Shown piece after piece: positions 3,141 through 23,453 of a stretch of DNA of 64,000 nt. Where the stretch lies: NCBI RefSeq assembly GCF_900110875.1, contig NZ_FOFM01000008.1, positions 1 to 64,000 on the forward strand, in the 5' to 3' direction. A model generated the notes under the pieces. That model made no database searches and had not been told where the DNA came from. It saw only the letters and a list, made by a program, of their open reading frames with translations. How positions within the stretch are numbered: position 1 is the first letter of the stretch; the number at the start of each line of letters is the position of its first letter. Position numbers and translations under genes: made by a program. Source of the stretch: Pseudovibrio axinellae. Its GTDB lineage: Bacteria > Pseudomonadota > Alphaproteobacteria > Rhizobiales > Stappiaceae.

Positions 3141-4499
3141 CTAACCCTTTTTTGCAGCTTTCGCGGCGGCGAGAGTTTCACGCATCGAGCTTGCGCGATT
3201 TTCCTTAGTGATCTGCTTCCCGCGGCCAATTGCAAACGCGTTTTCTGGCACGTCAGAAGTTATCACTGATCCTGCTGCCACAAACGAGCCTTTACCAAGT
3301 GTAACCGGCGCGACCAACACGCTGTCGGAGCCAACAAAGCTGTCAGCCCCAATATCGGTATGATGTTTCAGGTAGCCGTCATAGTTACAAGTAATCGTGC
3401 CTGCACCGATGTTCGATTTGGACCCAATCCGAGCATCGCCGATATAGGAAAGGTGATTTACCTTAGCGCCAGTCTCGATTTTTGCGTTCTTAATTTCAAC
3501 GAAGTTGCCGATGTGGGCCTCTTCGCCAATCTGGGCACCTGGGCGCAGCCGCGCATATGGACCAATAACCGCACCCGTACTCACATGAGCGCTCTCTAAG
3601 TGTGAAAACGCGCGAATCCGAGCACCACTCTCAACCTGGACACCAGGAGCAAACACAACATTAGGTTCCACGACAACGTCTGCCTCGATCTGCGTGTCGT
3701 AAGAAAAATATACAGTATCAGGCGCCTGCAAAGTCACGCCGTTTTCCATGAAGGTATCGCGTTGAACCTGCTGGAACACCGTTTCGCAGGCAGCCAATTG
3801 AGACCGGTTATTGATGCCTTGCACTTCTTTCTCATCGGCAAGCTCGGAGACAACACGCATGCCTTTTGTTCGGGCAACCTCAACGGCATCGGTCAGATAA
3901 TACTCGCCCTTAACATTGTCGTTGCGTATCTCTGAAATCAAACTCGGCAGCACTGTGCCCTTAAAGGCCATGATGCCTGCATTACATAAGGAGACGCTGC
4001 GCTCTTCATCAGTTGCATCCTTTTCCTCGCGGATCGCAGTGAGCTCCCCGCCACTCTCCAGCAAACGGCCATACCCAAAGGGATTTTCTGCTTCAAAACC
4101 AAGCACAACAACATCTGCCCCTTGAGCAAGCCGGCTGCGCAGTCGGTCAAGTGTTTTTGCGGTGACCAACGGCGTATCGCCAAACAATACAAGAACATGT
4201 TCGCAGGTTTCTGAATAGGCAGTCTCTGCCGCTTTCACCGCATGTGCAGTGCCCAAACGCTCATGTTGAATATGGCAGGTCGCATGAGGGACGCGAATGG
4301 CGACATGCTCCTCTAATTCAGGCATTTGCGGGCCGACGACAACAGCGACCTTGTCCGCTCCTGCCTGTACAACGGAATTGAGAACATGACCCACAAGCGG
4401 CAAACCACCTACCTCATGCATAACCTTAGGCAAGGCGGAACGCATTCGCGTTCCTAATCCAGCAGCCAAAACAATCGCCAAACAAGAACTATTGGACAT
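3141..4499 (-). CDS. glmU: Bifunctional glucosamine-1-phosphate acetyltransferase / GlcNAc-1-P uridylyltransferase
   Basis: Makes UDP-GlcNAc from glucosamine 1-phosphate in two steps. The 452 residues carry an N-terminal pyrophosphorylase domain with the signature IVLAAGLGTRMRSALPKVMH, a central linker, and a C-terminal left-handed beta-helix acetyltransferase with hexapeptide repeats (IGPYARLRPGAQIG, IGNFVEIKNAKI, NHLSYIGDA, GAGTITCNYDG). The start at 4499 (MSNSSCLAIVL) has AGAGG 7 bp upstream and fits the family. The frame is open to 4559, but that extension (MQLSCKLPVCMKF) has no support. Upstream of glmS, so both enzymes of the hexosamine branch are together; glmM is not in the window. 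Confidence 0.96.
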   Translation of the reverse strand: MSNSSCLAIVLAAGLGTRMRSALPKVMHEVGGLPLVGHVLNSVVQAGADKVAVVVGPQMPELEEHVAIRVPHATCHIQHERLGTAHAVKAAETAYSETCEHVLVLFGDTPLVTAKTLDRLRSRLAQGADVVVLGFEAENPFGYGRLLESGGELTAIREEKDATDEERSVSLCNAGIMAFKGTVLPSLISEIRNDNVKGEYYLTDAVEVARTKGMRVVSELADEKEVQGINNRSQLAACETVFQQVQRDTFMENGVTLQAPDTVYFSYDTQIEADVVVEPNVVFAPGVQVESGARIRAFSHLESAHVSTGAVIGPYARLRPGAQIGEEAHIGNFVEIKNAKIETGAKVNHLSYIGDARIGSKSNIGAGTITCNYDGYLKHHTDIGADSFVGSDSVLVAPVTLGKGSFVAAGSVITSDVPENAFAIGRGKQITKENRASSMRETLAAAKAAKKG

Positions 4500-4721
4500 G
4501 CAAACCTCTTGGGAACCCTTGAATTTCATACAGACTGGCAATTTGCACGAGAGCTGCAATTTTTCAAAGGAGATCCCTATGCTTTCACCAAGAAATTAAA
4601 CGTAACCATCAGAAAAGGCGTAATTTGGTTGTTGTATCCCCTCACAGTACGTTTACACCTTATTAACCATAACTAATCAATGTAGCCTAAGTAGATTCAA
4701 CTGGATTCGAGTGCGAGGCGA

Positions 4722-5729
4722 TTGGAAGCTTTGAAACTTCGCAAAAAAATCATAGAATTACGCGAAGATCCTCAAAAGATGCGTGAACAAATCACTGTCC
4801 TTGCATGGGGGCTTTTTGCAGTTTCGTTTGTCGCGCTTGCAGTGTCGGCTGTTCAATTGCCTGGCCAATTTGCCCAACAAAAAAGGCAGTTGCCCCAAGT
4901 ATCCTATGCTTTACCGGCTTCAGGGCCAGTCGAGACCACGGCGTCTATCGGCCAGAGCCTCTCTCCAAGACATATCCAAGTCTATAGTGGAGTGTTTAAT
5001 CAGCCTAAACCAGAGCAGTACGCGCGTGATAGCAAAGACTTAGCTGTCGTCCGCACTGAACTAGTCTCCCTGCGCCGTACTATGTTGCACCTTACAGAGC
5101 AAAATCGCAGGCTCGCTGTTAGGCTGAATTCTATTGATGTGGCATCGTCCAGCACACAAGATGAACCCAGTACTCAGCTCAAGCAAGCATCTGCCTCTCG
5201 TCGCGCTGTTGTGCCAACACCCAAAACCACATCACCTGTAGAAACCTTGCCCGCTCCTGAAACTGCAAATATTCAGGTATACGAAGCATCCGCCAAAGCC
5301 CTGCCTCTGAGAGTGTTTACAGCGCCTGTACAGATCAAGGAGGTTGTACTTCCAAAAGCAACTGCACTTCAAACCGTCGCCGCCATACCGACCACAGCGA
5401 TGCCAGATGAAGAGCTGGACTTTAAAAGAACACCAGAGGCTGGAACCTTTCACCAATCCGGCGCGCGCAAAATAACCCGCACCCGTTTTGCGGTGGATCT
5501 GGGGCGCTTTGACGATCAAAATGTTGCAAAAAACAGATGGAAGACACTGAAAGAAGATAACCTAAGCATACTCAGCAGTCTTCAAGAGCGCGTTACATCA
5601 ACGAATACTGATAGTGGAACCTATTATAGGCTGCTTGCTGGGCCGTTCTTTAATGCAGCAGACACAGCTGTGGTCTGCGCAAGACTGACACGAGAAAAAG
5701 TCAATTGCTTGCCGACCGTATTCCAATAG
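4722..5729 (+). CDS. Membrane-anchored protein with C-terminal SPOR-like domain
   Basis: 335 residues from a TTG start (MEALKLRKKIIELREDPQKM), with a second TTG three codons on as an alternative. A single membrane segment at about residues 24-47 follows a basic N-terminus, giving an N-in/C-out topology. A short coiled-coil-like stretch (VVRTELVSLRRTMLHLTEQN) and a Ser/Thr/Pro-rich linker come next. The last 80 residues (TRFAVDLGRFDDQNVAKNRW through YYRLLAGPFFNAADTAVVCA) have the beta-alpha-beta pattern of a SPOR peptidoglycan-binding domain. Known: SPOR proteins often localise to denuded septal glycan. A role in the envelope or division is inference. The gene is divergent from glmU and shares its 222-bp upstream region. 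Confidence 0.65.
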   Translation: MEALKLRKKIIELREDPQKMREQITVLAWGLFAVSFVALAVSAVQLPGQFAQQKRQLPQVSYALPASGPVETTASIGQSLSPRHIQVYSGVFNQPKPEQYARDSKDLAVVRTELVSLRRTMLHLTEQNRRLAVRLNSIDVASSSTQDEPSTQLKQASASRRAVVPTPKTTSPVETLPAPETANIQVYEASAKALPLRVFTAPVQIKEVVLPKATALQTVAAIPTTAMPDEELDFKRTPEAGTFHQSGARKITRTRFAVDLGRFDDQNVAKNRWKTLKEDNLSILSSLQERVTSTNTDSGTYYRLLAGPFFNAADTAVVCARLTREKVNCLPTVFQ

Positions 5730-5823
5730 GTTGACTTCATCTTCTTTCACCTGATTTCTGGTTGACTCATTTTCACGAGAGAAATTCCGATCAGATTTTG
5801 CAGGTCGTTTTGGAATAGTACAC

Positions 5824-6756
5824 GTGCCGACTTCATCTCCGAGTTCAAATTGGGCCACAACCTATGCCCTGTTGTTTCTTATGCCAGTGTTCATGAGTTC
5901 CAACATCATTATTGCCAAGCCTGCAATTGAAAGTACAGAGCCTTGGACCCTCGCGTTTTTCAGGTGGGGCCTTGCCTCCCTCCTCCTGCTGCCATTTACT
6001 TTTCGCGAATTAAAAGCCTGCCTGCCAGTTATTCTGAAGAATCTAAAACTGCTGAGCTTTATGGCATTTTTGGCAATGTGGGTTTGCGGTGCAATTGTCT
6101 ACCTAGCTTTAAAAGAAACATCGGCAACCAATGGCACTTTAATTTATTCTGCAGCCCCTGCCCTGATACTCACGCTTGAATGGCTCTTTCGAGGTCGCAA
6201 GGTTGCGTTTCGAGAGTTCATCGGCATCGGTCTTGCAATTACCGGCGTTTTCGTGATTGTGACCAAGGGCTCATTGAATAACCTGCTTAGCCTTCAATTG
6301 AACAAAGGTGACTTACTGTTTGCGCTGTGCACCCTAAGCTGGGCTATCTATTCCGTACTTATCAAGAAAAGCCAGTTACAAAGCATCTCAACCGTTCCTT
6401 TGTTCGCAGTCCTTTCAATCCTTGGAACCATTTTACTTGCTCCTTTTGCTTTGGGCGAAATGGCTATGACTGCTTCGATCCCCGCAACAAGTGAGGTTTG
6501 GCTTTCAATCGCAGGGGTCGCCCTCATCGCCTCAATTGCCTCCTTCCTTAGCTATCAGTACAGCATAAAGTTGGTGGGGCCTTCTATTGCAGGCATGTTT
6601 ATGTACTTGATGACCCCTTATGGTGTTGGGATGGCCGTTTTGTTTTTAGGTGAAAAATTACAGATGTTCCATTACCTTGGCTTCCTGCCAATTATGGCAG
6701 GCCTGTTGCTTGCTACCCTACCCTCAATGGTTTTCAAGAAAACGGCCAGAGCCTGA
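5824..6756 (+). CDS. EamA/DMT-superfamily permease
   Basis: An inner-membrane metabolite transporter or exporter of the drug/metabolite family; substrate unknown. 310 residues with about ten hydrophobic helices and the duplicated EamA organisation: NIIIAKPAIESTEPWTLAFF and the helix after it in the first half, ALCTLSWAIYSVLIKKS opening the second half, and a terminal LLLATLPSMVF helix. The frame begins at a GTG (5824); the first ATG is at 5881 (MPVFMSSN) but would remove most of helix 1, so the GTG or a nearby codon is preferred with moderate certainty. It lies 94 bp after the SPOR-like gene and ends before a strong bidirectional terminator. Confidence 0.85.
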   Translation: MPTSSPSSNWATTYALLFLMPVFMSSNIIIAKPAIESTEPWTLAFFRWGLASLLLLPFTFRELKACLPVILKNLKLLSFMAFLAMWVCGAIVYLALKETSATNGTLIYSAAPALILTLEWLFRGRKVAFREFIGIGLAITGVFVIVTKGSLNNLLSLQLNKGDLLFALCTLSWAIYSVLIKKSQLQSISTVPLFAVLSILGTILLAPFALGEMAMTASIPATSEVWLSIAGVALIASIASFLSYQYSIKLVGPSIAGMFMYLMTPYGVGMAVLFLGEKLQMFHYLGFLPIMAGLLLATLPSMVFKKTARA

Positions 6757-6780
6757 TATTTCCCTTAGTTTAAGGCACAA

Positions 6781-6811
6781 AAAAAGCAGGCTGACTGGCC
6801 TGCTTTTTCGT
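6781..6811. terminator. Bidirectional Rho-independent terminator
   Basis: Near-perfect hairpin with AAAAAGCAGGC and GCCTGCTTTTT arms around a 5-nt loop (6781-6807), flanked by A-run and T-run. It lies between the convergent EamA gene and ccdA and can serve both. Confidence 0.85.
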
Positions 6812-6829
6812 TTTAATTCTCGCCACATC

Positions 6830-7567
6830 TTATCCGATTTGTGAAAAGACCGGGAATGTCTCCAGTAACCAGAAAGAAAATGCCTGAATGTAACCGGTCA
6901 GGAAACCAACGCCTGTTAACACCAAAAACGCGCCCATGACCTTCTCCACAGTTCCCATGTGTTTTCTAAAGCGCGCCATAAAGCCCATAAACGGGCCCGC
7001 AAACATAGCCGCAATCAAAAATGGCACACCAATACCAAGCGAATAGGCCGCCAGCAGAATAACACCCTGATTAACAGAGCTTTGCGTCCCTGCGACCAGC
7101 AGGATGCTTGCCAGAACCGGGCCGATACATGGCGTCCAGCCAAACCCGAAAGCCAGCCCCATAAGGTAAGCACCGCCAAATCCACCTGGTTGACGGTCCA
7201 TCTGTACGCGCGCTTCACGGTACAAAAATGCGATTTTGAAAGCGCCAAGGAAGTGAAGACCCATGATGATGATCATGGCGCCAGCCAAGTACGCAAGAAA
7301 CTGCGAGTACTGCAGGACAAACTGCCCCAAGAAAGAAGCGCTTGCACCAAGCAGTATAAAGACCGTTGAAAAACCGGCCACAAAACACATGGCAGCAACC
7401 ATCACTCTGTTGCTCTGGGCGGCACTCTTATTTCGGCTCGTCACCTCTTCAATAGATAAGCCGGCGATGTATCCAAGGTATGGAGGCACAAGCGGTAAAA
7501 CGCAGGGTGAAACAAAAGACAATATGCCCGCGAAAAATGCCCCCCAAAGGGTAATGTCTTGCAACAT
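6830..7567 (-). CDS. ccdA: Cytochrome c biogenesis protein CcdA (thiol-disulfide transmembrane carrier)
   Basis: Carries reducing equivalents from cytoplasmic thioredoxin across the inner membrane for cytochrome c maturation and other periplasmic thiol reduction. 245 residues, about six transmembrane helices, DsbD-type transmembrane family. Both redox cysteines are visible: GILSFVSPCVLPLVPPYLGY near the N-terminus and FGWTPCIGPVLASI in the second half. An AGGATAA element precedes the ATG. It is downstream of the uspA/TRAP genes on the same strand but 230 bp away, so it is probably transcribed separately. Confidence 0.9.
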   Translation of the reverse strand: MLQDITLWGAFFAGILSFVSPCVLPLVPPYLGYIAGLSIEEVTSRNKSAAQSNRVMVAAMCFVAGFSTVFILLGASASFLGQFVLQYSQFLAYLAGAMIIIMGLHFLGAFKIAFLYREARVQMDRQPGGFGGAYLMGLAFGFGWTPCIGPVLASILLVAGTQSSVNQGVILLAAYSLGIGVPFLIAAMFAGPFMGFMARFRKHMGTVEKVMGAFLVLTGVGFLTGYIQAFSFWLLETFPVFSQIG

Positions 7568-7797
7568 GTATTTATCCTAATTCCGTTTGGAATACATCCA
7601 TTCAGATTTGTGTGCGCTCACGCGTTCATACGCATCAGCACACCGACCCTGAATTGGATCATCAACGTTTGTATATACAATTTTGTTGAGAGTTTGATGT
7701 GTTTCGTCAAACAGATGCAAAAAACCTGCGACACTTTTTGGTGAACGGAAACTAGGAGACCCTACTCACCGTTCACCAATCACACAAAATGTGACGC

Positions 7798-8232
7798 TTA
7801 GTTGTCACGAACAACCAGTACTGACTGGTTGGCATGGCGTACGACGCGGGCCGCATTCGGTCCGAGAAGGAAGTCTTTAAGCTCAGGGCGATGAGAGGAT
7901 AAAACGATCAGATCTGTACCCAGCTTATCTGCAGCACTGGTGATCTCCTCATAAATCGTCCCATGGGCGATATGCCCCTTCACATTAAGTTCTTCTTCAG
8001 GAAGCTGTGTATCGAGAAACTGCTCAAGAGCCTCACGTGTACGCTCCAACGCCTCAGTCTCAAACTCGCGAGCAAAGTATCCGCCAACGATTGACTTTCC
8101 AAAATCTGGCAGCACCGTCACCACATGCAGCTGGGCCTTGTAATGACGTGCCAAATCAATGGCCACGGGCAGCGCAGTTTTCCAGCTGCTTTCTTCATTC
8201 AAGTCCAATGGCAACAAGATATTGGAGTACAT
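7798..8232 (-). CDS. Universal stress protein UspA family, TRAP-associated
   Basis: 144 residues, one Usp domain: MYSNILLPLDLNEES at the N-terminus, HGTIYEEITSAADKLGTDLI, then SSHRPELKDFLLGPNAARVV and a VLVVRDN C-terminus. The G-2x-G-9x-S nucleotide motif is partly kept (GPNA for GxxG), so ATP binding is plausible but not certain. The start at 8232 has GAGGAG 7 bp upstream; the open frame extends five codons further without support. It lies 43 bp downstream of the TRAP permease gene. Known: TeaD, a Usp protein beside the TeaABC TRAP transporter of Halomonas, modulates that transporter. A similar role here is inference from position. Confidence 0.88.
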   Translation of the reverse strand: MYSNILLPLDLNEESSWKTALPVAIDLARHYKAQLHVVTVLPDFGKSIVGGYFAREFETEALERTREALEQFLDTQLPEEELNVKGHIAHGTIYEEITSAADKLGTDLIVLSSHRPELKDFLLGPNAARVVRHANQSVLVVRDN

Positions 8233-8275
8233 TTCCCAACTCCTCAATAGATAAAAACGTTATGGCACAGCCCGC

Positions 8276-10891
8276 TTAAAAAGCAGGCTGTATTTGGCGC
8301 CGGCGTTGAAGCCCGACAACCAGTAAGAGCAAGAGCAAAGCAGGTATATAGAACAGCTCTTTAGGCATGCGTTGTGCGTCAACCTGAGAATTCAAAATCA
8401 CTACTGGAACATCTCCGTAGAAATCAAAATCCTGCAGCTTTTCAGCAAACTGAGTGCCTGGGAACGGTTCTTCCAACGTCAGTTGGCCATCCATATCCAC
8501 GGTCACCAAACCTGACGCATTCAACCTTGCTTCAGCGCCTTGCTCGTCTCCAATGGTTAGCGGCAATGTGATTGTCTGGATTTTATCCATGTCATCAAAA
8601 TCCGGACCTGAGAGGTTTAGACGCACCATATCACCCGGTTGTGCATCTCCCACCATCTGCATGACAGCTGGACCTGTGACAGTTACGTACGGGTCTTGCA
8701 CCTGATCAAGCCAGAAGCCTGGACGGAACAGCGTGAACGCGATGAGAAGCAGTGCAACAGATTCCCACAAACGCGAACGTGCGAAGAAATACCCCTGCGT
8801 AGCGGCTGCAAATAACATCATCGCGACCACCGCCACAACGAAGACAAAGACCGCCTCAAGAGGTTCAACATCGATCAGGAGAAGATCTGTGTTGAAGATG
8901 AACAGGAATGGCAACGCTGCTGTACGCAACGAATAAATGAAGCCCTGAACACCCGTCTTGATTGGATCACCACGACTGATCGCAGCTGCGGCAAATGCCG
9001 CCAGCCCCACAGGTGGCGTGACGTCGGCCATGATACCGAAGTAGAAGACGAAGAAGTGAACCGCAATCAGAGGAACAATGAAACCGGTCTGTTCACCAAG
9101 ATCAACCACAACCAGTGCCATCAACGAGGACACAACAAGGTAGTTCGCAGTTGTTGGCAGACCCATGCCCAAGATAAGGCTCATCACAGCAACCAGCACC
9201 AGCATCAACAGCAAGTTGCCACCGGAAAGGAACTCCACCAAAGCAGCGATCATCTGATGCATGCCGGTTAGAGATACCGTGCCCACGATGATACCAGCAG
9301 CAGCTGTTGCTACTGCAATACCGATCATATTGCGCGCGCCGCCTGTCATGCCTTCTACAAAGTCCACAACACCCTGCCAGATATGGCTTGTTATAGATTC
9401 TTTACGGAAGAATGCTTTGAGTGGGTGCTGGGTAACCACAATAAAGATCATGGCCATTGTTGCATAAAACGCTGACAGAGACGGTGAGAACCGCTCAACA
9501 AGGATACACCAGATCAGGACAACAATCGGCAGAATAAAGTAGTAACCAGTCCGGCCAACATCGCCAGCTGCAGGCAGTTCTTTCACTGGCGCATTCGGAT
9601 CATCGACTTCTAGGTCTGGAACCTGCGCAGCAATATAAAGCAAGCCAACATACCCAACTGCAAACAAGGCCAGAACCACTGGGAATGTTAGTGATGGGAA
9701 GGCTGTTTTGGTCCATCCAAGGCCGTAATAAACCGCTGCACCAACAATTGTAATCCCGATAAAGCCGGTCAAAACGCCGATCAGACGCTGCAAGATGGTT
9801 ACGTGTACGGGCGGCTTTGGCAACCCTTTCAGGTTCATCTTCAAGGCTTCAAGGTGCACGATATACACCAGCGCAATGTAAGAGATGACGGCTGGAATGA
9901 ATGCGTGAATGACGACCTGATGATAGCTGGTACCAGTGAATTCAGCGATCAGGAATGCTGCTGCACCCATCACAGGTGGCATCAGCTGACCATTTACCGA
10001 AGACGCCACTTCAACAGCGCCTGCTTTTTCAGCAGGAAAGCCGGTGCGTTTCATCAAAGGAATGGTGAATGTACCTGTGGTCACAACGTTTGCAATGGAA
10101 GAGCCTGAGTAAAGACCACTCATTGCAGAAGCAAGAACGGCTGCTTTTGCAGGACCGCCGCGCAAATGCCCTAAAAGCGCAAATGCTGCTTTAATAAAGT
10201 AGTTGCCAGCTCCAGCTTTTTCAAGCAGCGAGCCAAACAAAACAAACAGGAAGATCATGGAGGCCGAAACGCCAATGGCGACGCCAAACACGCCTTCCTC
10301 TTGGATCCAGTAATGCCACATGGCTTTACCGTAGGACGCTCCGCGCCACTGAATAACTTCCGGCAGAATTGGAGAGTTACCAAACATCGCATAGGCAACG
10401 AAAACCGCTGCAACGATCACCAATGGCAAGCCAAGGCTACGATAAACCGCTATCGCGAGCACTGCCAGACCAGTTGAGGCAACGATCAGATCCATCTGCG
10501 TTGGAAGGCCAGCGCGATTTCCAAGATCACCGCGCATCACCACAAGGTAGAGACAAGCCGCGGCCCCTAAAAATGCAAGTATCCAATCATACCACGGGAT
10601 CGTGTTACGCGGACTGCTGGAAAACAGAGGGTAAGCAAACGCTGCAAGCACGAGGCCAAAGGCCAGGTGGATGTTACGCACAGCGGAATCGTTAAAAATG
10701 AGATAGACACCAAAGGTATCATTCAGCCAAAATGGAACGTTCGACGCCACGTAGAGCTGAAAAACGGACCAGAAAAAGGCAATGGCCGCAATCATGGTGC
10801 CTAAGTTGCCAGTAAGGCTCCGCGCACCGGTATCTGCCTGAGCGACCAATTCTTGCGCATCAACTTGCGCTTTGTGTCGTTCTGGACTCAT
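8276..10891 (-). CDS. TRAP transporter, fused 4TM/12TM permease with C-terminal DUF3394-type extension
   Basis: Secondary transporter driven by an ion gradient, using the neighbouring TAXI binding protein. 871 residues. Small (DctQ-like) helices in the first 200 residues are fused to the large DctM-like domain (VLASAMSGLYSGSSIANVVT, GTFTIPLMKRTGFPAEKAGA, VMSLILGMGLPTTANYLVVS). The last 200 residues are a soluble beta-rich segment (PYVTVTGPAVMQMVGDAQPG onwards) followed by one final helix, as in TRAP fusions with DUF3394. The start at 10891 (MSPERHKAQVD) follows GGGGGTG; an upstream in-frame TTG at 10903 overlaps that site. Substrate unknown; related systems take organic acids or glutamate. 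Confidence 0.93.
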   Translation of the reverse strand: MSPERHKAQVDAQELVAQADTGARSLTGNLGTMIAAIAFFWSVFQLYVASNVPFWLNDTFGVYLIFNDSAVRNIHLAFGLVLAAFAYPLFSSSPRNTIPWYDWILAFLGAAACLYLVVMRGDLGNRAGLPTQMDLIVASTGLAVLAIAVYRSLGLPLVIVAAVFVAYAMFGNSPILPEVIQWRGASYGKAMWHYWIQEEGVFGVAIGVSASMIFLFVLFGSLLEKAGAGNYFIKAAFALLGHLRGGPAKAAVLASAMSGLYSGSSIANVVTTGTFTIPLMKRTGFPAEKAGAVEVASSVNGQLMPPVMGAAAFLIAEFTGTSYHQVVIHAFIPAVISYIALVYIVHLEALKMNLKGLPKPPVHVTILQRLIGVLTGFIGITIVGAAVYYGLGWTKTAFPSLTFPVVLALFAVGYVGLLYIAAQVPDLEVDDPNAPVKELPAAGDVGRTGYYFILPIVVLIWCILVERFSPSLSAFYATMAMIFIVVTQHPLKAFFRKESITSHIWQGVVDFVEGMTGGARNMIGIAVATAAAGIIVGTVSLTGMHQMIAALVEFLSGGNLLLMLVLVAVMSLILGMGLPTTANYLVVSSLMALVVVDLGEQTGFIVPLIAVHFFVFYFGIMADVTPPVGLAAFAAAAISRGDPIKTGVQGFIYSLRTAALPFLFIFNTDLLLIDVEPLEAVFVFVVAVVAMMLFAAATQGYFFARSRLWESVALLLIAFTLFRPGFWLDQVQDPYVTVTGPAVMQMVGDAQPGDMVRLNLSGPDFDDMDKIQTITLPLTIGDEQGAEARLNASGLVTVDMDGQLTLEEPFPGTQFAEKLQDFDFYGDVPVVILNSQVDAQRMPKELFYIPALLLLLLVVGLQRRRQIQPAF

Positions 10892-11019
10892 TTGCACCCC
10901 CAAAAACAGTTACCCTTTGCCTTAGCTGGAAAGGCAGAGCAAGGAACCTGCGAAATCTAATAGAAAAACAAAAAAATGCGGGGCACAAAGCGCCCCACAT
11001 TATCGAAAACCGGGTTAAA

Positions 11020-11979
11020 TTACATCCAACCACGTTCTTTGTAGTACTTCACCGCGCCGTCATGCAGAGGAGCTGTCAAGGAATCCTTGATCATCTCTTC
11101 TTCTTTCAGGTTTTTGAACGCAGGGTGAAGCTTTTTGAAGTCATCGAAGTTTTCGAAGACTGCTTTAACGAGTGTGTAAACAACATCATCCGGCACAGCA
11201 GCAGAGGAAACGAAGGTCGCGCCAACACCGAAAGTGTTGATGTCTTCTGCGTTGTTGTACATGCCTGCTGGGATAGTGGCTTTACGGTAGAAGGAGTATT
11301 TGTCGACCAGGTCGTCAATTGCCTTGCCTTCAAAGTTCACCAAGCGCGCATCACAGGTGCTTACTGTTTCCTGGGTAGATGCAGATGGGTGGCCAACGAG
11401 CCAGTAGTACGCATCGATCTTGCCATCACACAAAGCAGAACCAGCTTCAGCGGACTTCAGCTCAGTTGCCAGAGCCAAATCACCAGTGTTGACGATGCCT
11501 TCTTTTTCAAGCAGCTGCCAAGTCGCGTACTGGCCGGAACCTGCGTTGCCGATGTTGACTTTCTTACCCTTCAGATCTGTGTAGTTGTTTACACCAGAAT
11601 CTTTGGAGGTCAGCATGGTCACAGGCTCAGGGTGTACTGAAAATACAGAACGCAGCTCACCAAATGGCTTGCCTTCCCACTGTGCGCGACCATCATATGC
11701 GTTCGCCTGAACGTCGGACTGTGCAACACCAAATTCCAATTCACCATTTTGGATGGTGTTGATGTTGTAAACAGAACCGCCTGTGGATTCTACAGAACAG
11801 CGAATGCCGTGTTCCTTGCGTGTCTTATTTACAAGACGACAAATCGCACCGCCTGTTGGGTAGTAAACACCGGTTACGCCGCCAGTACCAACAGATACGA
11901 AACGATTTTCGGCCGAAGCCCCGGTTGCTACACTCGCAACAATCAGCGCAGCTCCAACTGCAACATTGCTTAGTTTCAT
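11020..11979 (-). CDS. TAXI-family TRAP transporter solute-binding protein
   Basis: Periplasmic receptor for the fused TRAP permease. 319 residues with a signal peptide (MKLSNVAVGAALIVASVATG, predicted cut after ASA). The mature part opens ENRFVSVGTGGVTGVYYPTG, the hallmark start of the TAXI family (TRAP-associated extracytoplasmic immunogenic). It continues with CSVESTGGSVYNINTIQNGE and FGVAQSDVQANAYDG. ATG 11979 is 5 bp after GGAGG; a GTG four codons upstream overlaps that site and is rejected. First gene of a likely operon: binding protein, 128-bp gap, permease, uspA. Confidence 0.94.
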   Translation of the reverse strand: MKLSNVAVGAALIVASVATGASAENRFVSVGTGGVTGVYYPTGGAICRLVNKTRKEHGIRCSVESTGGSVYNINTIQNGELEFGVAQSDVQANAYDGRAQWEGKPFGELRSVFSVHPEPVTMLTSKDSGVNNYTDLKGKKVNIGNAGSGQYATWQLLEKEGIVNTGDLALATELKSAEAGSALCDGKIDAYYWLVGHPSASTQETVSTCDARLVNFEGKAIDDLVDKYSFYRKATIPAGMYNNAEDINTFGVGATFVSSAAVPDDVVYTLVKAVFENFDDFKKLHPAFKNLKEEEMIKDSLTAPLHDGAVKYYKERGWM

Positions 11980-16187: not shown

Positions 16188-17849
16188 ATGCCTGACTCTC
16201 AAGCCCCAAGAAAAGCTTCCGATCTTCTTGTCGCCGCATTGGAGGCAGAAGGCGTCGAATACGTTTTTGCCGTTCCCGGCGAAGAAAACCTTGACGTGCT
16301 GGAAAGTCTGCGCACATCCACAATCGAGCTGGTGCTGAACCGACATGAACAAGGTGCAGCCTTTATGGCCGCCACGTATGGGCGCCTGACTGGTAAGGCT
16401 GGCGTGTGTATGGCAACCCTTGGCCCTGGCGCCACCAACTTTACCACCCCGGCGGCCTATGCCTATCTGGGCGGCATGCCGCTGATCATGATCACGGGCC
16501 AAAAACCAATCAAACAATCCAAGCAGGGGCAATTTCAGATTGTTGACATCGTTAATCTGTTTGAACCCATTTGCAAAATGTCCAAACAGATTGTGCATGG
16601 CAACACTATTCCTGCGGTGGTCCGCGAAGCTTTTCGCGTGGCTGAGGAAGAACGCCCCGGCTCCGTCCTGTTAGAACTTCCCGAAGATATCGCCATTGAA
16701 GAAACGAATGAATCTGTCCTGCAACCCCACCCCCGCTACTACGCTATTGCAGGTGATACAGTACTCAATGAAGCAGCGGAGATGATCCGCAACGCGAAAA
16801 TGCCATTGATGTTGCTGGGCGCAGGTGCCAACCGAAAGGACGCACATGCGATCTTAGGTGACTTTGCTGAAAAGACGCAGATTCCTTTTTTCAACACACA
16901 GATGGGCAAGGGTGTCATAGACGAACGCTCCCATCTTTTTCTGGGCACCGCGGCACTTTCTGATGGCGATTATGTGCACTGTGCTATTGCACGTGCCGAT
17001 CTGATCATCAATGTGGGTCATGACGTGGTTGAAAAGCCCCCCTTCTTGATGGAGGAAGGCGGCACCAAGGTTATCCATATGAATTATAAGGCAGCGCAGG
17101 TCGACCAGGTCTACTTTCCTCAGGTTGAGGTGGTGGGAGATCTGGCCCGTTCTGTTGAACGTCTTGGGGATATTTTGGGTGGCCCACTGGAGTTTGACCA
17201 CAGCTACTTCGAGCGCATCAAGCAAGAGGTAGATCTACATACCTCAGAAGGTAGCGAAGACCCCCGTTTCCCGGTGATCCCGCAGCGACTGGTCGCAGAC
17301 ACGCGCAAAGTCATGGGCGACTTCGATATCATTTCGCTCGACAACGGCATCTATAAGATTTGGTACGCTCGTAACTACAAGGCTCATCAACCCAACACAG
17401 TTCTCTTAGACAATGCGTTGGCAACAATGGGCGCAGGCCAAGCCTCTGCAATGATGGCAGCAAAGCTCAACCCAAACCGGCGTGTGATGGCAATTTGCGG
17501 CGACGGAGGCTTTATGATGAATTCTCAGGAGCTGGAAACCGCTGTTCGTCTAAAACTTAATTTGGTGATCACTGTGCTTAATGACAGCGCCTATGGCATG
17601 ATCCGTTGGAAACAGGCCCATGCCGGCTTTAAGGACTGGGGGCTTCAGTTCGGCAACCCGGATTTCGTAGAATATGCCAACAGCTTCGGTGCCACTGGTC
17701 ACAGGATTACCCGTACCGAGGATTTGGTCCCCACGTTTGATGAAGCCTTTGCAGAAGGTGGCGTACACCTCGTTGATGTCCCGGTTGATTACAGCGAAAA
17801 CAAACGGGTTCTGATTGATGAACTTGCAGCAAAGGTGTGCTTGTTATGA
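16188..17849 (+). CDS. Acetolactate synthase-like thiamine-diphosphate enzyme (large subunit type)
   Basis: 553 residues with the three-domain ThDP fold. The N-terminal Pyr domain has VEYVFAVPGEENLDVLESL and the catalytic Glu in LNRHEQGAAFMAATYGRLTG. The central domain has MPLMLLGAGANRKDA. The C-terminal ThDP-binding motif is ICGDGGFMMNSQELETAVRL through VLNDSAYG. It probably condenses pyruvate, or pyruvate with another keto acid or aldehyde. No small regulatory subunit gene (ilvN) follows; instead the stop codon overlaps the start of an aldehyde dehydrogenase gene, suggesting a catabolic or specialised role rather than branched-chain amino acid synthesis. The proposed role is inference. The ATG at 16188 has a weak CCGGAGA upstream. 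Confidence 0.85.
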   Translation: MPDSQAPRKASDLLVAALEAEGVEYVFAVPGEENLDVLESLRTSTIELVLNRHEQGAAFMAATYGRLTGKAGVCMATLGPGATNFTTPAAYAYLGGMPLIMITGQKPIKQSKQGQFQIVDIVNLFEPICKMSKQIVHGNTIPAVVREAFRVAEEERPGSVLLELPEDIAIEETNESVLQPHPRYYAIAGDTVLNEAAEMIRNAKMPLMLLGAGANRKDAHAILGDFAEKTQIPFFNTQMGKGVIDERSHLFLGTAALSDGDYVHCAIARADLIINVGHDVVEKPPFLMEEGGTKVIHMNYKAAQVDQVYFPQVEVVGDLARSVERLGDILGGPLEFDHSYFERIKQEVDLHTSEGSEDPRFPVIPQRLVADTRKVMGDFDIISLDNGIYKIWYARNYKAHQPNTVLLDNALATMGAGQASAMMAAKLNPNRRVMAICGDGGFMMNSQELETAVRLKLNLVITVLNDSAYGMIRWKQAHAGFKDWGLQFGNPDFVEYANSFGATGHRITRTEDLVPTFDEAFAEGGVHLVDVPVDYSENKRVLIDELAAKVCLL

Positions 17850-19234
17850 GCAAAACGCTGGAGGTCGTGAACCCCTACAGTTTGGCACCTGTCGGGCACG
17901 TCACAACGAGTGACTGGAAGGGGGTCAACGCACTGCTGGAAACAGCGCATACCCTCTTTCGCCAAAGTAACAGCAGGATTCCTGCCTATCAGCGGATCAC
18001 TATACTCAAGAAAGTTGCCCACCTCATGGAGGAGCGGTTTGAGGAACTGGCCTTGCAAATCGCCAGTGAGGGCGGCAAGCCACTGGTCGATGCCCGCGTT
18101 GAAGTCAAACGTGCCATAGACGGGGTGGAGCTTTGCGTGCACGAAATAGGTCAACTGACTGGCCGGGAAATTCCCATGGAGCTGACAGAGGCTGGCTCAG
18201 GGCGCATCGCCTTTACACAGCGTGAACCAATCGGCGTCGTCGTCGCTGCTAGCGCCTTCAACCACCCCTTGAACTTGATCGTGCATCAAGTAGCACCTGC
18301 AGTAGCAACCGGCTGCCCGGTCATTGTCAAGCCTGCCCCTGACACCCCTTTGAGCTGCCTTGCCTTCGTCAGTATGTTATATGAGGCGGGCTTGCCTCAA
18401 GATTGGTGCCGCGCGGTTATCTGCGACAACGCGGTAGCTGAACAAATGATCACCGACACAAGGGTCGGCTTCCTCTCCTTCATCGGGTCCGCACGCGTCG
18501 GCTGGATGCTGCGTTCAAAGTTAGCCCCTGGTACGCGCTGCGCGTTGGAACATGGCGGCGCCGCGCCAGTCATCGTTGCGCAAGATGCGGACATTAATGC
18601 AATGATCCCGCTGCTTGCTAAGGGTGGTTTCTATCATTCCGGTCAGGTGTGCGTTTCCGTCCAGCGCGTATTTGCGCCCAAAGCCAAGGCAAAAGAAATT
18701 GCACAAAAGCTGGCAGACGTTGCCACCGCACTAAAAGTTGGCGATGCAACTGACCCCACAACCGATTGCGGCCCGCTGATCCGCCCCGCCGAAGTCGATA
18801 GGGTTGAAGCTTGGGTCGATGAAGCAATAGCGGGAGGCGCAAAACTAATCGCCGGAGGTAAACGTTTGGGCGCAACCACTTACGCCCCAACCGTGTTGTT
18901 GGACCCACCATCTGACGCTCGCGTCTCGCAATCGGAAATCTTTGGTCCTGTAATCTGTGTTTACACGACTGATAGTACAGCGGAGGCAATTGAAACTGCA
19001 AACAGTTTGCCCTTCGCCTTTCAGGCCGCGGTCTTCACCAAAAGCCTTGAAACAGCAATGCAAGCCGTGCACGAACTAGATGCCACCGCCGTCATGGTCA
19101 ACGACCACACTGCCTTTCGTGTCGACTGGATGCCCTTCGCAGGCCGCCGCCACTCTGGCTACAACACCGGCGGAATTGGCTACACCATGCATGACATGAC
19201 ACAGGACAAGATGGCAGTAATCAAGTTGGTTTGA
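17846..19234 (+). CDS. NAD(P)-dependent aldehyde dehydrogenase family protein
   Basis: 462 residues of the ALDH superfamily. Cofactor region GVVVAASAFNHPLNLIVHQV and VIVKPAPDTPLSCLAF; glycine-rich FIGSARVGWMLRS; catalytic Glu in LEHGGAAPVIV (usually ELGG); catalytic Cys in YHSGQVCVSVQRVF; C-terminal SEIFGPVICVY. All key residues are present. The start ATG at 17846 overlaps the upstream TGA (ATGA), so translation is coupled to the acetolactate synthase-like gene. The two enzymes probably act in sequence on a keto acid or aldehyde; the substrate cannot be read from sequence. Three codons of open frame upstream (GTG LeuVal-like) are rejected in favour of the overlap start. Confidence 0.88.
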   Translation: MSKTLEVVNPYSLAPVGHVTTSDWKGVNALLETAHTLFRQSNSRIPAYQRITILKKVAHLMEERFEELALQIASEGGKPLVDARVEVKRAIDGVELCVHEIGQLTGREIPMELTEAGSGRIAFTQREPIGVVVAASAFNHPLNLIVHQVAPAVATGCPVIVKPAPDTPLSCLAFVSMLYEAGLPQDWCRAVICDNAVAEQMITDTRVGFLSFIGSARVGWMLRSKLAPGTRCALEHGGAAPVIVAQDADINAMIPLLAKGGFYHSGQVCVSVQRVFAPKAKAKEIAQKLADVATALKVGDATDPTTDCGPLIRPAEVDRVEAWVDEAIAGGAKLIAGGKRLGATTYAPTVLLDPPSDARVSQSEIFGPVICVYTTDSTAEAIETANSLPFAFQAAVFTKSLETAMQAVHELDATAVMVNDHTAFRVDWMPFAGRRHSGYNTGGIGYTMHDMTQDKMAVIKLV

Positions 19235-19641: not shown

Positions 19642-20544
19642 ATGAAAACCTGTAAGAAAGATACTCTTTTCCAAGCCGAGAAAAGCGGCAACGGTGTGCA
19701 ACCAAAAGGGACATACGAAGATAGCAAAACGGCGATGGCAGAATCTTTGAGACTTGATTTGCCTCCATCGCCAAAGCACATTGAGATAAACAACAGGCTA
19801 GTTGCTTGGGAAGCTTACCTGGGGATCGGAAAAGTATCCTCGTTTCCTACTATGTTACATATAGGTCTCAACGATGTCTGTAACGCACGCTGTGCTTTTT
19901 GTATGTATGACCCCGAGCGTTCAACATCAAACAGGGTGCAGGTTGAAGATATAAAGCGTGCAAAATGGTTGAAATATGTGCACACAATTCTACCAAACGC
20001 TGGGTTGAGTGACCCATTAACACATCCAGAAATTGCCAAGATTCTGGATGCCATACACAAAAACGCTCCTTACATTAAGATGCACCTTACGACAAATGCA
20101 TCGCTTCTGGACAATCAGTTGACTTCGATTTTAGCCGGATACCTTTCCTTAATAATTGTCTCTCTGAATGCGGCCAGAAAAGAGACCTATGAGTTCCTTA
20201 TACCTCCTCTCAAGTGGGAGAAAACGATAGGCAACTTACGTGATCTTCAAAAGGTAAAGGCAGAACGTCAGGCACACCTGCCAGAAATCCAGGCGGGCTA
20301 CGTTTTGAACAAACACAACTTTGAAGAATTACCTGAACTACCAGCAGTATTGGCTTCACTTGATATTAGATCCGCACGTATCATAGAAATGGCAGTACCG
20401 GGCACGATCAAAAGTCGGGCACTTCTAACTGTCGATGACGTTGTTCCCGATGACAAACAGAGGGTATCTAGTGTATTTCATGAATTTCGTAAGGAGTGTA
20501 TAAAATATAATATCAACTTAACTCAACCCATGCCTAAACTATAA
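19642..20544 (+). CDS. Radical SAM protein lacking a SPASM domain
   Basis: 300 residues. The cluster motif is C80-x3-C84-x2-C87 (LNDVCNARCAFCMYDPE), which binds the SAM-coordinating [4Fe-4S] cluster. The usual GGE-type segment reads LPNAGLSDPLTHPEI, so the conserved Glu is replaced. Later core elements are MHLTTNASLL and LSLIIVSLNAARKETYEFLI, typical of SPASM-containing radical SAM enzymes that act on peptides or sugars. It ends right after the core (ECIKYNINLTQPMPKL), where relatives continue into a SPASM domain; that domain is in the next gene, 48 bp downstream. The first 65 residues are unassigned. AT-rich codon use suggests acquisition by transfer. Substrate unknown. Confidence 0.8.
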   Translation: MKTCKKDTLFQAEKSGNGVQPKGTYEDSKTAMAESLRLDLPPSPKHIEINNRLVAWEAYLGIGKVSSFPTMLHIGLNDVCNARCAFCMYDPERSTSNRVQVEDIKRAKWLKYVHTILPNAGLSDPLTHPEIAKILDAIHKNAPYIKMHLTTNASLLDNQLTSILAGYLSLIIVSLNAARKETYEFLIPPLKWEKTIGNLRDLQKVKAERQAHLPEIQAGYVLNKHNFEELPELPAVLASLDIRSARIIEMAVPGTIKSRALLTVDDVVPDDKQRVSSVFHEFRKECIKYNINLTQPMPKL

Positions 20545-20592
20545 AATATCTATTCAGTCTCTAATTAATATGTTGATTCATTTATTTGGAGT

Positions 20593-22140
20593 ATGTCATT
20601 GAATAAATTATCAAATATTTTAAAGAACTGCGAAGAACTGTTCAACGTTAAAATATTAAAGCACGCCACACCTGATCACTCCATGAGCTCCAGCGTTACT
20701 ACTGCAACCAGTTCACAGACAAAAAGTAAGCGGCTAACACCTGACGAGAAACGTGAGATCTACCTTCACTATGGAAAAGAGGGGCTTAGTATCTCGAAAG
20801 AGTTTCTAAAACAAATTGCTTTGGGTGAAGCGCCATTTTGTACCTACCCATGGAAGCGCCTTGATATTGTATCAGGTGATAACCGGACCAAAGTTTGCTC
20901 TGATTTCCCAACTCGATTACCGGTTTTCAACTGGCCAACGACTGAGGACTTCCACAATGAGAACAACATGTGGAACCATCCATTTATGCAGTATATGAGA
21001 CAAAATATGGGCACCACCAGTGCTGTGCCTTATTGTGATCTTTGTGTTCGTGCGAATAAACGATCTCCAAAAAACTTTGATTGGAGAGACACAGCTCGAA
21101 GCGAAACGAAAAAAATATTCACCAAAATTGAAAGTGAACGCATTGCTAAGTCTTACCGAGGTTGTGTGAACAAAGAACTGGTTAATTCTTATAATGAACT
21201 TCTTTGGAAACAACGTTCAACGGTACCATTTCATCGCTCAATTGACGAGTACAGAAAGCAGATCTGGATTAATAACTTACATAATTCGGGCAGCTTGCTT
21301 CAAATTGGAGTGAAGAAACCTGCATATTCCATCTTTCTAGCGGAGGCAAATGAGAATCTGGACATTGCTGACTTTAGCAAGGATCGTTTGAAGTTAGCTG
21401 CCAACACTTTGGAACATTTCGGGCTCAGCACTTCACAACATCACCTCAATGGATCTGGTAAACTTCCGTTTGCAGATAGTTCATTTAATGCTGTTTGGAT
21501 AGATGGAGAAATTATATACTCAGCTAATCGTGAGTTTCTTTTTTCTGAACTTCGGCGCATTCTGAAACCAAATTCTCGATTGCACGTAAATCGTGCATTT
21601 AGTGTAGGTGAACTGCTTCGCAGATTTTTGAATGCCCCAACAAACTTATCCGGATGCGAGGTTACTGCCAACATGTCTGCTGATAATAACTGGGCTCGGC
21701 AGGGAGAAGACATTCTGCAATGGCAGGCAGATTGTGTTCGATCACCCCATTTTGATGAGCTCGAACTGCCTAGGGATGCTAACCAAAAAAATTCAGGAAG
21801 GCAGTTTGACGCGATAGCTGCGCGAAGTGCTTTAATCTGCGGACAACACTATTCTCAACCCGGAAATTTCTTTTACGCGGACAGTGTTCGACGAGTACTA
21901 CGGAAGCTAGGGGTTACACTTGATGTCATCAAAGGGATAAGCGTTAACCGTCTACCTACAAGCGCTCTAAGCAAGCTATCACTCGCTTTCCTTGCTAACG
22001 ACCACGAATTGACAGCAGCACTTAAGCAGTATGGTGAACAAAACCCCTACACTCATGCTAGCCTAGCTACTTATAGTGCTTTCATTTCATTTAATGCTAT
22101 CGTAAATAAGGAAACTCAGAAGAAGGTGCCATCAACTTAA
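20593..22140 (+). CDS. SPASM domain fused to a SAM-dependent methyltransferase-like domain
   Basis: 515 residues. After a polar N-terminus, a SPASM-like auxiliary cluster domain spans about 80-155 with C83 (APFCTYPWKRLDI), C102 (TKVCSDF), C148 and C151 (VPYCDLC). A class I methyltransferase-like domain follows at about 232-335 (SLLQIGVKKPAYSIFLAE, GKLPFADSSFNAVWI, SELRRILKPNSRLHV). Its motif I lacks the usual GxGxG, so SAM binding is uncertain. The C-terminal 150 residues are unassigned. The preceding gene supplies the radical SAM core, so the pair looks like one SPASM enzyme split in two with an added methyltransferase. GGAG lies very close to the ATG; Met31 is an alternative start. The end abuts an IS6 remnant, so the extreme C-terminus may be altered. 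Confidence 0.7.
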   Translation: MSLNKLSNILKNCEELFNVKILKHATPDHSMSSSVTTATSSQTKSKRLTPDEKREIYLHYGKEGLSISKEFLKQIALGEAPFCTYPWKRLDIVSGDNRTKVCSDFPTRLPVFNWPTTEDFHNENNMWNHPFMQYMRQNMGTTSAVPYCDLCVRANKRSPKNFDWRDTARSETKKIFTKIESERIAKSYRGCVNKELVNSYNELLWKQRSTVPFHRSIDEYRKQIWINNLHNSGSLLQIGVKKPAYSIFLAEANENLDIADFSKDRLKLAANTLEHFGLSTSQHHLNGSGKLPFADSSFNAVWIDGEIIYSANREFLFSELRRILKPNSRLHVNRAFSVGELLRRFLNAPTNLSGCEVTANMSADNNWARQGEDILQWQADCVRSPHFDELELPRDANQKNSGRQFDAIAARSALICGQHYSQPGNFFYADSVRRVLRKLGVTLDVIKGISVNRLPTSALSKLSLAFLANDHELTAALKQYGEQNPYTHASLATYSAFISFNAIVNKETQKKVPST

Positions 22141-22895
22141 CTTGAATTTGGCGGCAAGAGCTTTCACCATGCGGATTTCAAGCGCGAAGCATAGCTGCCT
22201 GTTTCCATTGTGAGAAAGCGTGATGCGATGAAGATGAATGTCGATTGCAGAACGTTGGTGGCGAGGTGGAACGAACAGATTACGTAAGCCTGCGAAGACT
22301 GCCAGAAATCTTTGTAGCTGGCCCCGCGACATGAACTTTTGCATGCCCCTTTCGCGTTTTCGCAAGGGCAAATGCGAGTTCTCTGCACGATTGTTTAAGC
22401 GCTTGTGGCTGCGGTGCTGGACAGCTGGCATCACTTTGCGTTTTGCCGCCCGATAGGAAGACAGTTTGTCGGTAATAATTCGTTTTGGAGTAACGCCCTG
22501 ACTTGATAACAAACGGTCAATAAACATTTGGCAGCCTTGGTATTGCGCCGTTTTTGAAGGATTTCGTCCAGAATGTAACCATCCTGATCAACGGCCCGCC
22601 ACAAGCAATATCGCTGACCCTATATCTTGATAATAACCTCATCAAGATACCAGATATCCGAGCTTTGTGCTCTTTTGCGGCGCAACCGACGACTGTAAGC
22701 TGGACCAAACTTGATCCCCCACTTGCGGATGGTTTCATAGGACAGGGTAATGCCGCGCTCCAGCAGCATTTCTTCCACCTCGCGCAGGCCGAGGGAGAAG
22801 CGGTGATAGAGCCAAACAACGTGAGCGATAATCTCGGGTGTAAAACGATGGCGCTTTAACTGATCGCAGCTGAGGTCATACGCCTCTGCTATCAT
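22132..22895 (-). pseudogene. IS6-family transposase, broken
   Basis: From ATG 22895 the minus strand reads LKRHRFTPEIIAHVVWLYHR, REVEEMLLERGITLSYETIR, RKWGIKFGPAYSRRL and DIWYLDEVIIKI, the N-terminal and first DDE part of an IS6 transposase. A TAG then interrupts it. The same frame continues with YCLWRAVDQDGYILDEILQK and RRNTKAAK. A frameshift near 22530 moves to the frame of MFIDRLLSSQGVTPKRIITD, followed by NNRAENSHLPLRKRERGMQK. One nonsense codon and one frameshift therefore inactivate it. No intact IS6 terminal repeats are evident; the 5' side runs straight into an integrase fragment and the 3' side into the SPASM-methyltransferase gene. Confidence 0.85.
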
Positions 22896-22930
22896 ATCAA
22901 TCTGGCCCGAAAGTTAACGTGACATCACCA

Positions 22931-23230
22931 TTGCGAGACATGCTGGACAAGCTAAAGCGAGACCAGATCAGCAACAACATGCTCTCAACTCATGTTTTGA
23001 CGAATACCAGGGGCAAACCCTAGACCACTGATGGGTTTCTAAGCTCGTGGGGAAAGGCAATCAAGAAAGTCGGGATTGAAGGATTACAATTTAATGATCT
23101 AAGGGGAACAGCCGTTACATCATGGGCGGAGGCAGAAGCAACCGTCCCAGAAATTGCAGCCCTATCCGGGCATAGTCTGAAGGATGTGAAAAAGTTCCAA
23201 AAGGCCAACAATCCGCACAAACTGTTGAAA
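22931..23230 (+). pseudogene. Phage-type tyrosine integrase, C-terminal fragment
   Basis: The plus frame from 22931 reads LRDMLDKLKRDQ, then a TAG where integrases have Trp (RGKP-stop-TTDGFLSSWGKA). It continues with GIEGLQFNDLRGTAVTSWAE and VPEIAALSGHSLKDVKKF. The box II pattern is partly changed: FNDLRGTA has Asn for the usual His of HxLR, and the second motif LSGHSLKDV keeps Gly-His. The catalytic Tyr region is replaced (KFQKANNPHKLLKS), so the C-terminus is also lost. It points toward the 3' end of tRNA-Arg about 150 bp away, as expected for an integrase next to its attachment site. It is a remnant of an integrated element. Confidence 0.8.
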
Positions 23231-23376
23231 TCCTTTTGTTCCTGCCCAATCCCACTTAATCCCGTAACTTTTCCATTACTCCCGTTCGTTCTTGCGCCTT
23301 ACACAAAAGTGTAAAACAGGCTGTAAAACATTCGCGTTGAGCGAAAATTAAAGCCTACTAACCAATTGAAAAATAA

Positions 23377-23453
23377 TGGCGACCCCTGCAGGATTCGAAC
23401 CTGCGACCGTCGGCTTAGAAGGCCGGTGCTCTATCCAGCTGAGCTAAGGGGCC
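23377..23453 (-). tRNA. tRNA-Arg (anticodon TCT)
   Basis: 77 nt with encoded CCA. Acceptor GGCCCCT pairs with AGGGGTC; anticodon loop CTTCTAA gives TCT; T-arm GCAGGTTCGAATCCTGC; discriminator G. It lies between an integrase remnant and the complex I gene and is a plausible integration site. Confidence 0.96.

Follow-up and report, generated by a model that had tools for sequence, protein, structure and literature searches.

Single-chain SPASM/Twitch enzymes such as BtrN, MoaA, anSME, PqqE, SkfB and SuiB join a radical S-adenosylmethionine (SAM) core to a Twitch fold. A Twitch domain holds a single auxiliary cluster; that of BtrN is ligated by four cysteines and is likely the electron acceptor in a two-electron oxidation (PMC9012708; Twitch anatomy in PMC6231123). 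Here, we describe a gene pair in a 64,000-nucleotide stretch of Pseudovibrio axinellae DNA (contig NZ_FOFM01000008.1, positions 1 to 64,000; hereafter the window) that encodes the same radical SAM core and Twitch fold but, unlike those enzymes, places Twitch on a second protein, where it is fused to a methyltransferase-like fold. Protein A (19642..20544, plus strand, 300 amino acids) is the radical SAM core subunit, and protein B (20593..22140, plus strand, 515 amino acids) carries the Twitch and methyltransferase-like parts; an intergenic gap of 48 bp (20545..20592) lies between them. An earlier interpretation made from the letters of the window (the sequence-only reading) had described the two open reading frames (ORFs), their spacing, and the cysteines C80, C84 and C87 of A and C83, C102, C148 and C151 of B, all correctly. 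We consider it fairly probable that A and B together make up one Twitch-type radical SAM enzyme, as its two subunits, with the auxiliary cluster provided in trans.

Two further genomes carry this gene pair, broken at the same point: a Rhodobacteraceae metagenome-assembled genome (MAG; locus L123) and a genome of the same genus as L123 (G1213; locus L207). The gap between A and B was 16 bp in L123, where A ends in ..LTQPLPAF and B begins 16 bp on, and 13 bp in L207. A and B occupy the same relative frame in the window and different frames in L123 and L207, so the split cannot be put down to one stop codon common to all three. Because the same pair recurs with the same break in both loci, the split is not an artefact, and we are nearly certain that the split pair is conserved. 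The sequence-only reading had named as its own refutation a situation in which homologues elsewhere form one chain and only this strain is split; instead, the close relatives are split at the same place. Identity to the window copy was 55-61% for the A core, 65-67% for B Twitch, 31% for the methyltransferase-like part and 23-24% for the tail of B. The corresponding pN/pS values (nonsynonymous over synonymous differences per site) between L123 and L207 were 0.12, 0.18, 0.31 and 0.41, which are rough values as synonymous sites are near saturation. By these measures the split copies are under purifying selection.

To place the pair among its relatives, we scanned the genome_contigs collection (84,980 species, each represented by one genome according to the tool) with the four-row alignment A3. 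The scan matched 239 stretches and yielded 139 relatives, of which the best 80 of 139 (L123 and 79 distant relatives) were analysed. L123 showed 56% identity over A and every other relative at most 31% in its best segment; the single-chain form was found only in these distant relatives (at most 31% identity), and the auxiliary domain was encoded by a gene separate from the core in all three genomes with the pair. Alignment A6 contains 44 of the 79 relatives: L136, L192, L194 and L199 were dropped as short or cut, leaving 75 usable, and 31 more were left out for redundancy. Pfam SPASM lies in the same chain in 40 of these 44, and the two L123 rows have none.

The pair is rare. It occurred in 2 of 394 genomes of the L123 family (an even draw from a larger group), namely L123's own and G1213, and in 2 of 12 genomes of the L123 genus. 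Of 87 genomes of the window's family, only the window's own contained A, with no match in the other 86; among 297 genomes of the order, five besides its own matched A, at 23-27% identity. Among 61 relatives there was no full-length B beyond itself, with four matches to the methyltransferase part only. The N-terminal part of B matched only itself in 385 genomes of the class; across 398 genomes of the phylum, two genomes encoding N-Twitch proteins matched as well. A phage or plasmid origin of the pair was rejected: phage records held no match to A or B, plasmid matches were distant and single-domain only (6 records for B, 13 for A), and scans of viral contigs returned no relative with B, A5 or A4 and 39 distant radical SAM loci with A1. 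We found no report of a split Twitch/SPASM enzyme in the open-licence literature searched.

Protein A has the features of a radical SAM core. Pfam Radical_SAM matched it with E = 2.8e-10, and its L123 and L207 orthologues are 54-59% identical to the window copy. The CxxxCxxC motif (CNARCAFC, residues 80-87; 19879..19902, plus strand) retains C80, C84 and C87, the expected radical SAM cluster ligands, in all three copies. The only other cysteine invariant across the A copies is C286 (20497-20499), near the C-terminus. In the structural model, blocks of residues 101-250 reached a predicted local distance difference test (pLDDT) score of 83-98, as for a radical SAM core fold. The N-terminal extension (residues 1-70; 19642..19851, plus strand) is helical in the model (block pLDDT 82-92 for residues 21-70); over 66 aligned residues it shares 61% identity with each orthologue, with conservation setting in at around residue 16. 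The top-scoring NCBIfam model for all three A copies was TIGR04317 (tungsten cofactor oxidoreductase radical SAM maturase), at 73.7 bits in the window and 72.9 and 67.0 bits in the others. These scores are far under its 380-bit cut-off and the match stops at model position 184-215 of 349, which places A outside that equivalog. Past the CxxxCxxC motif, A has 212-213 residues, compared with at least 257 in 76 of the 79 distant relatives; two of the remaining three are cut by contig ends and the third, L199, stops early. Judged from these alignments, A ends at the point where distant relatives run on into SPASM/Twitch, as the sequence-only reading had supposed of a core stopping where SPASM should begin. 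L199 itself stops 142 residues past the motif with no contig end there, making it the single distant relative in which SPASM may likewise be absent.

The missing domain appears to reside at the N-terminus of B. Residues 64-195 (20782..21177, plus strand) form a Twitch region that is 65-67% identical to the orthologues, and C83, C102, C148 and C151 within it are the only cysteines invariant across the three B copies. They sit at the positions expected for a Twitch domain: the layout is that of the single-chain enzymes (one cysteine before the hairpin, one after, two after the helix) and the four-cysteine ligation pattern is the one reported for BtrN (PMC9012708, PMC6231123). NF033640 matched all three B copies over its N-terminal Twitch positions (E 2.2e-7 in the window, 8.8e-7 and 5.8e-6 in the others), and was the sole NCBIfam model over this part (E up to 1 for the window, up to 0.001 for the others). 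Two Twitch/SPASM profiles built from other proteins scored 24.6-30.6 bits on the three B copies vs at most 11.1 for 1000 shuffles of the window B segment. The "SPASM-like" set of the sequence-only reading is therefore a real domain by these matches and its four cysteines, but a weak one that PF13186 does not reach. Because four cysteines are conserved, it is better called a Twitch domain, with one cluster, than a full SPASM domain.

The pair is distinct from N_Twi_rSAM proteins. NF033640 proteins carry Twitch before the radical SAM core in one chain, whereas B has a methyltransferase-like fold in the core's place, and the NF033640 scores (25.6-30.3 bits for B, 30.6-39.3 for A) are spread over two chains and stay below the 170-bit cut-off. 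A first profile search pointed to N-terminal Twitch domains as the origin of B Twitch, but this search was biased, as its top rows (L063-L065, L072, L073) had been chosen for likeness to B. In a fairer test restricted to domains of loci retrieved with the core alone (18 N-terminal and 33 C-terminal, redundancy removed), HMMER gave a tie between N-terminal Twitch and C-terminal SPASM (24.6-30.6 vs 26.2-30.5 bits) and hhalign slightly favoured C-terminal SPASM (score 50.2 vs 40.5). Locus L072 (G506:C19), among the top rows of the first search, encodes at 4238-11149 a pair of radical SAM proteins whose N-terminal Twitch is confirmed by NF033640, one of which follows an ABC transporter ATPase and its Wzt C-terminal domain in a single fused chain, and two more adjoining frames with the same motif layout (weak profile match).

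Downstream of Twitch, residues 220-345 of B (21250..21627, plus strand) have the Rossmann-like fold of class I SAM-dependent methyltransferases, matching Methyltransf_11 (4e-6) and Methyltransf_25 (3.1e-6) and bearing out the methyltransferase-like domain that the sequence-only reading had seen. Motif I, an acidic residue with a glycine-rich SAM loop, is degenerate in all three copies (LQIGVKKP in the window, LQMGLRTP and LQIGLRNA in the others). This part of B was folded separately, and the fold-comparison rows do not bear on it. The remaining residues, 346-515 (21628..22137, plus strand), form an unassigned tail, the fastest evolving part of B (23-24% identity to the orthologues) with pLDDT mostly below 50.

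In the mechanism that we propose, A would bind a [4Fe-4S] cluster and SAM and generate a 5'-deoxyadenosyl radical, and the Twitch of B would hold one auxiliary cluster ligated wholly by cysteine and shut the open side of the A partial barrel, much as the fused Twitch does in single-chain enzymes. The substrate radical would then pass an electron to the auxiliary cluster, making the overall reaction a two-electron oxidation like that of BtrN. Since none of the three copies retains the SAM glycine loop, the methyltransferase-like fold and the fast-evolving tail would serve to bind or present the substrate, not to methylate it. The two-protein system put forward in the sequence-only reading is supported by the adjacency of the genes in three of three genomes, the conserved cysteines in both proteins and the co-conservation of core and Twitch, and the invariant cysteines fit the pattern that a radical SAM cluster in A and a single, fully ligated auxiliary cluster in B would require. 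It is quite probable that A and B form a working heteromer, and only a little less so that B supplies the auxiliary cluster in trans. We are more tentative about the chemistry: by analogy with BtrN the likeliest is oxidation, for example dehydrogenation or bond formation, which we rate as plausible but short of probable. Much the same holds for an obligate two-subunit enzyme in which the degenerate methyltransferase fold of the trans partner has been repurposed as a substrate-binding module, an idea about as open to doubt.

Several observations weigh against the two-subunit enzyme. The conservation sample is three genomes, two of them from one genus, and among the 16 neighbouring proteins scanned no family was common to the window and the other two loci beyond the pair itself. 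PF13186 SPASM gave no match at E up to 1 on B of the window, L123 or L207. Loss of motif I is not unique to B, as the pattern was present in 24 of 32 methyltransferase-like ORFs of the fetched loci and missing from 8 of 32 (one a truncated match, several with a shorter GCG). B may still bind SAM, because D260 is retained and window B exceeds two Pfam methyltransferase cut-offs. Finally, the predicted docking of B Twitch on A is based on homology together with a tethered AlphaFold2 model, in which the Twitch part had block pLDDT of 49-85, the mean pLDDT was 61.9 and the dock was partly built in because the model was fed alignment rows of natural single-chain relatives.

Direct evidence for a catalytic role of SPASM/Twitch auxiliary clusters is called long elusive in PMC9012708. 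If A and B do form one enzyme, the auxiliary-cluster domain would be a separate purifiable subunit, and its role could be tested by adding or omitting that subunit with the core unmutated. The electron-relay cluster could then be supplied, taken away or mutated without touching the radical-generating core. The pair would also indicate that the core/Twitch unit can split in evolution and join another fold.

As for the substrate, for which the sequence-only reading had suggested a peptide, sugar or lipid, the polysaccharide loci of some distant relatives, together with the methyltransferase gene that immediately follows the radical SAM gene in at least 3 of the 79, lead us to lean toward glycans or sugar nucleotides. 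A sugar or nucleotide-sugar substrate is possible rather than likely, and fold matches to peptide enzymes were as good as those to sugar enzymes. A related explanation, compatible with the two-subunit enzyme and held with similar reserve, is that the pair is a glycan or nucleotide-sugar enzyme that left its polysaccharide cluster, descending from radical SAM-SPASM and methyltransferase proteins of surface-polysaccharide loci. Loci of this type that contain distant relatives include one of Azospirillum sp. TSH100, with wbaP, an O-antigen ligase and glycosyltransferases, and one on a Brachyspira plasmid, with rfb genes. A protein of G686 (L075:74-4321, G686:C52, minus strand) likewise has radical SAM, SPASM and methyltransferase domains; it differs in being one 1416-aa frame with two glycosyltransferase domains and the order SPASM-rSAM-methyltransferase (GT2-GT4-SPASM-rSAM-methyltransferase). 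DesII and BlsE, the two highest VIA rows, act on sugars. DesII, BlsE and SkfB differ from the pair in being single chains, at 13-20% identity.

We consider it unlikely that A and B are instead two consecutive enzymes, A being a Twitch-less one that needs no partner, as with viperin, and B an independent Fe-S methyltransferase for the same substrate. The SAM loop is gone in all three B copies, A ends where its relatives enter SPASM, and the most conserved part of B is Twitch rather than the methyltransferase-like part. This explanation does draw on viperins, which lack a SPASM domain, being among the best Foldseek matches, and on at least 3 of the 79 distant relatives (L166, L196, L202; a lower bound, as the count comes from an iterated profile) in which a Pfam-confirmed class I methyltransferase gene sits immediately 3' of the radical SAM gene and in the same orientation, so such pairings occur.

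Sactipeptide maturases are SPASM/Twitch enzymes (PMC6231123), and SuiB and SkfB are close fold matches, which would fit a maturase pair for a ribosomally synthesized and post-translationally modified peptide (RiPP) with its precursor encoded elsewhere. We regard this as improbable: short ORFs flanking the three pairs (153-407 bp upstream, 160-180 bp downstream) were alike only at chance level, the upstream gaps of L123 and L207 did not align at E 1e-10, and no copy of A or B had a Pfam match to a RiPP recognition element (RRE), in a check that covered the flanks of the pairs and Pfam. A broken single-chain gene or assembly artefact, suggested by the shared frame of window A and B with two TAA codons between them and by decay on the right side of the island, is hardly conceivable: the split copies in L123 and L207 rule out an artefact of the window strain, and their other relative frames and apparent purifying selection refute it for the pair as a type.

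In the window the pair was probably acquired horizontally, because its GC is low and remnants of mobile elements and a tRNA lie to its right. GC was 0.42-0.43 vs 0.495 for the whole window, and GC at third codon positions (GC3) was 0.38-0.42 vs 0.56-0.61 in the two upstream genes; the L123 pair, at GC 0.56-0.57, falls inside its locus's range of 0.56-0.65. An insertion sequence (IS) remnant (22132..22922, outer ends approximate) abuts the B stop codon; the final residues of B, together with its stop, may derive from the left end of this remnant. It contains an IS240-type DDE piece on the minus strand (PF13610, 1.2e-14), a second piece matching DDE_Tnp_IS66 at 2.1e-4, under its cut-off, and one weak candidate 12-bp inverted-end pair at 22132 and 22911 with 2 mismatches. 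Next is a remnant with one in-frame stop (22919..23316, plus strand) that we take to be integrase-like by recognition of its translation, without Pfam support; Pfam found no match on the piece after the stop, and 170 bp of the remnant are 75% identical to sequence beside a tRNA-Arg in L050. A tRNA-Arg (TCT; 23377..23453, minus strand) follows as a possible island target, and the search for an attachment-site repeat left of the pair gave nothing beyond 12-bp chance matches. Together with absence of the pair from the other 86 genomes of the family, these features agree with the AT-rich genes and island context of the sequence-only reading.

In the search of gene pairs, fusions and neighbours that this reading had called for, the pair turned up in two further genomes, and no neighbour is conserved between the window and the other loci. 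Pfam assigned the 10 neighbours at L123 and L207 to phosphorylase, sulfate permease, flavin reductase, acetyltransferase, EcsC and alpha/beta hydrolases, and the 6 in the window to a thiamine-diphosphate enzyme, aldehyde dehydrogenase, NDUS4, a phosphate transporter and Sel1, with no match for 2 of the 16 proteins. A sulfate permease gene precedes the pair in both L123 and L207; it is a single ORF in L207 and two overlapping ORFs in L123 (5146-6809), possibly from a frameshift or MAG error. An acetolactate synthase/aldehyde dehydrogenase block (16188-19234) lies left of the tRNA-Arg in the window and on the opposite side, about 40 and 31 kb off, in G002 and G004, so the locus has been rearranged; among the matches listed, the block shares 76-77% identity with Leisingera plasmid genes. 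At another site, the genome that the window comes from has three radical SAM genes within 3.3 kb (G000:C37:18852-22076).
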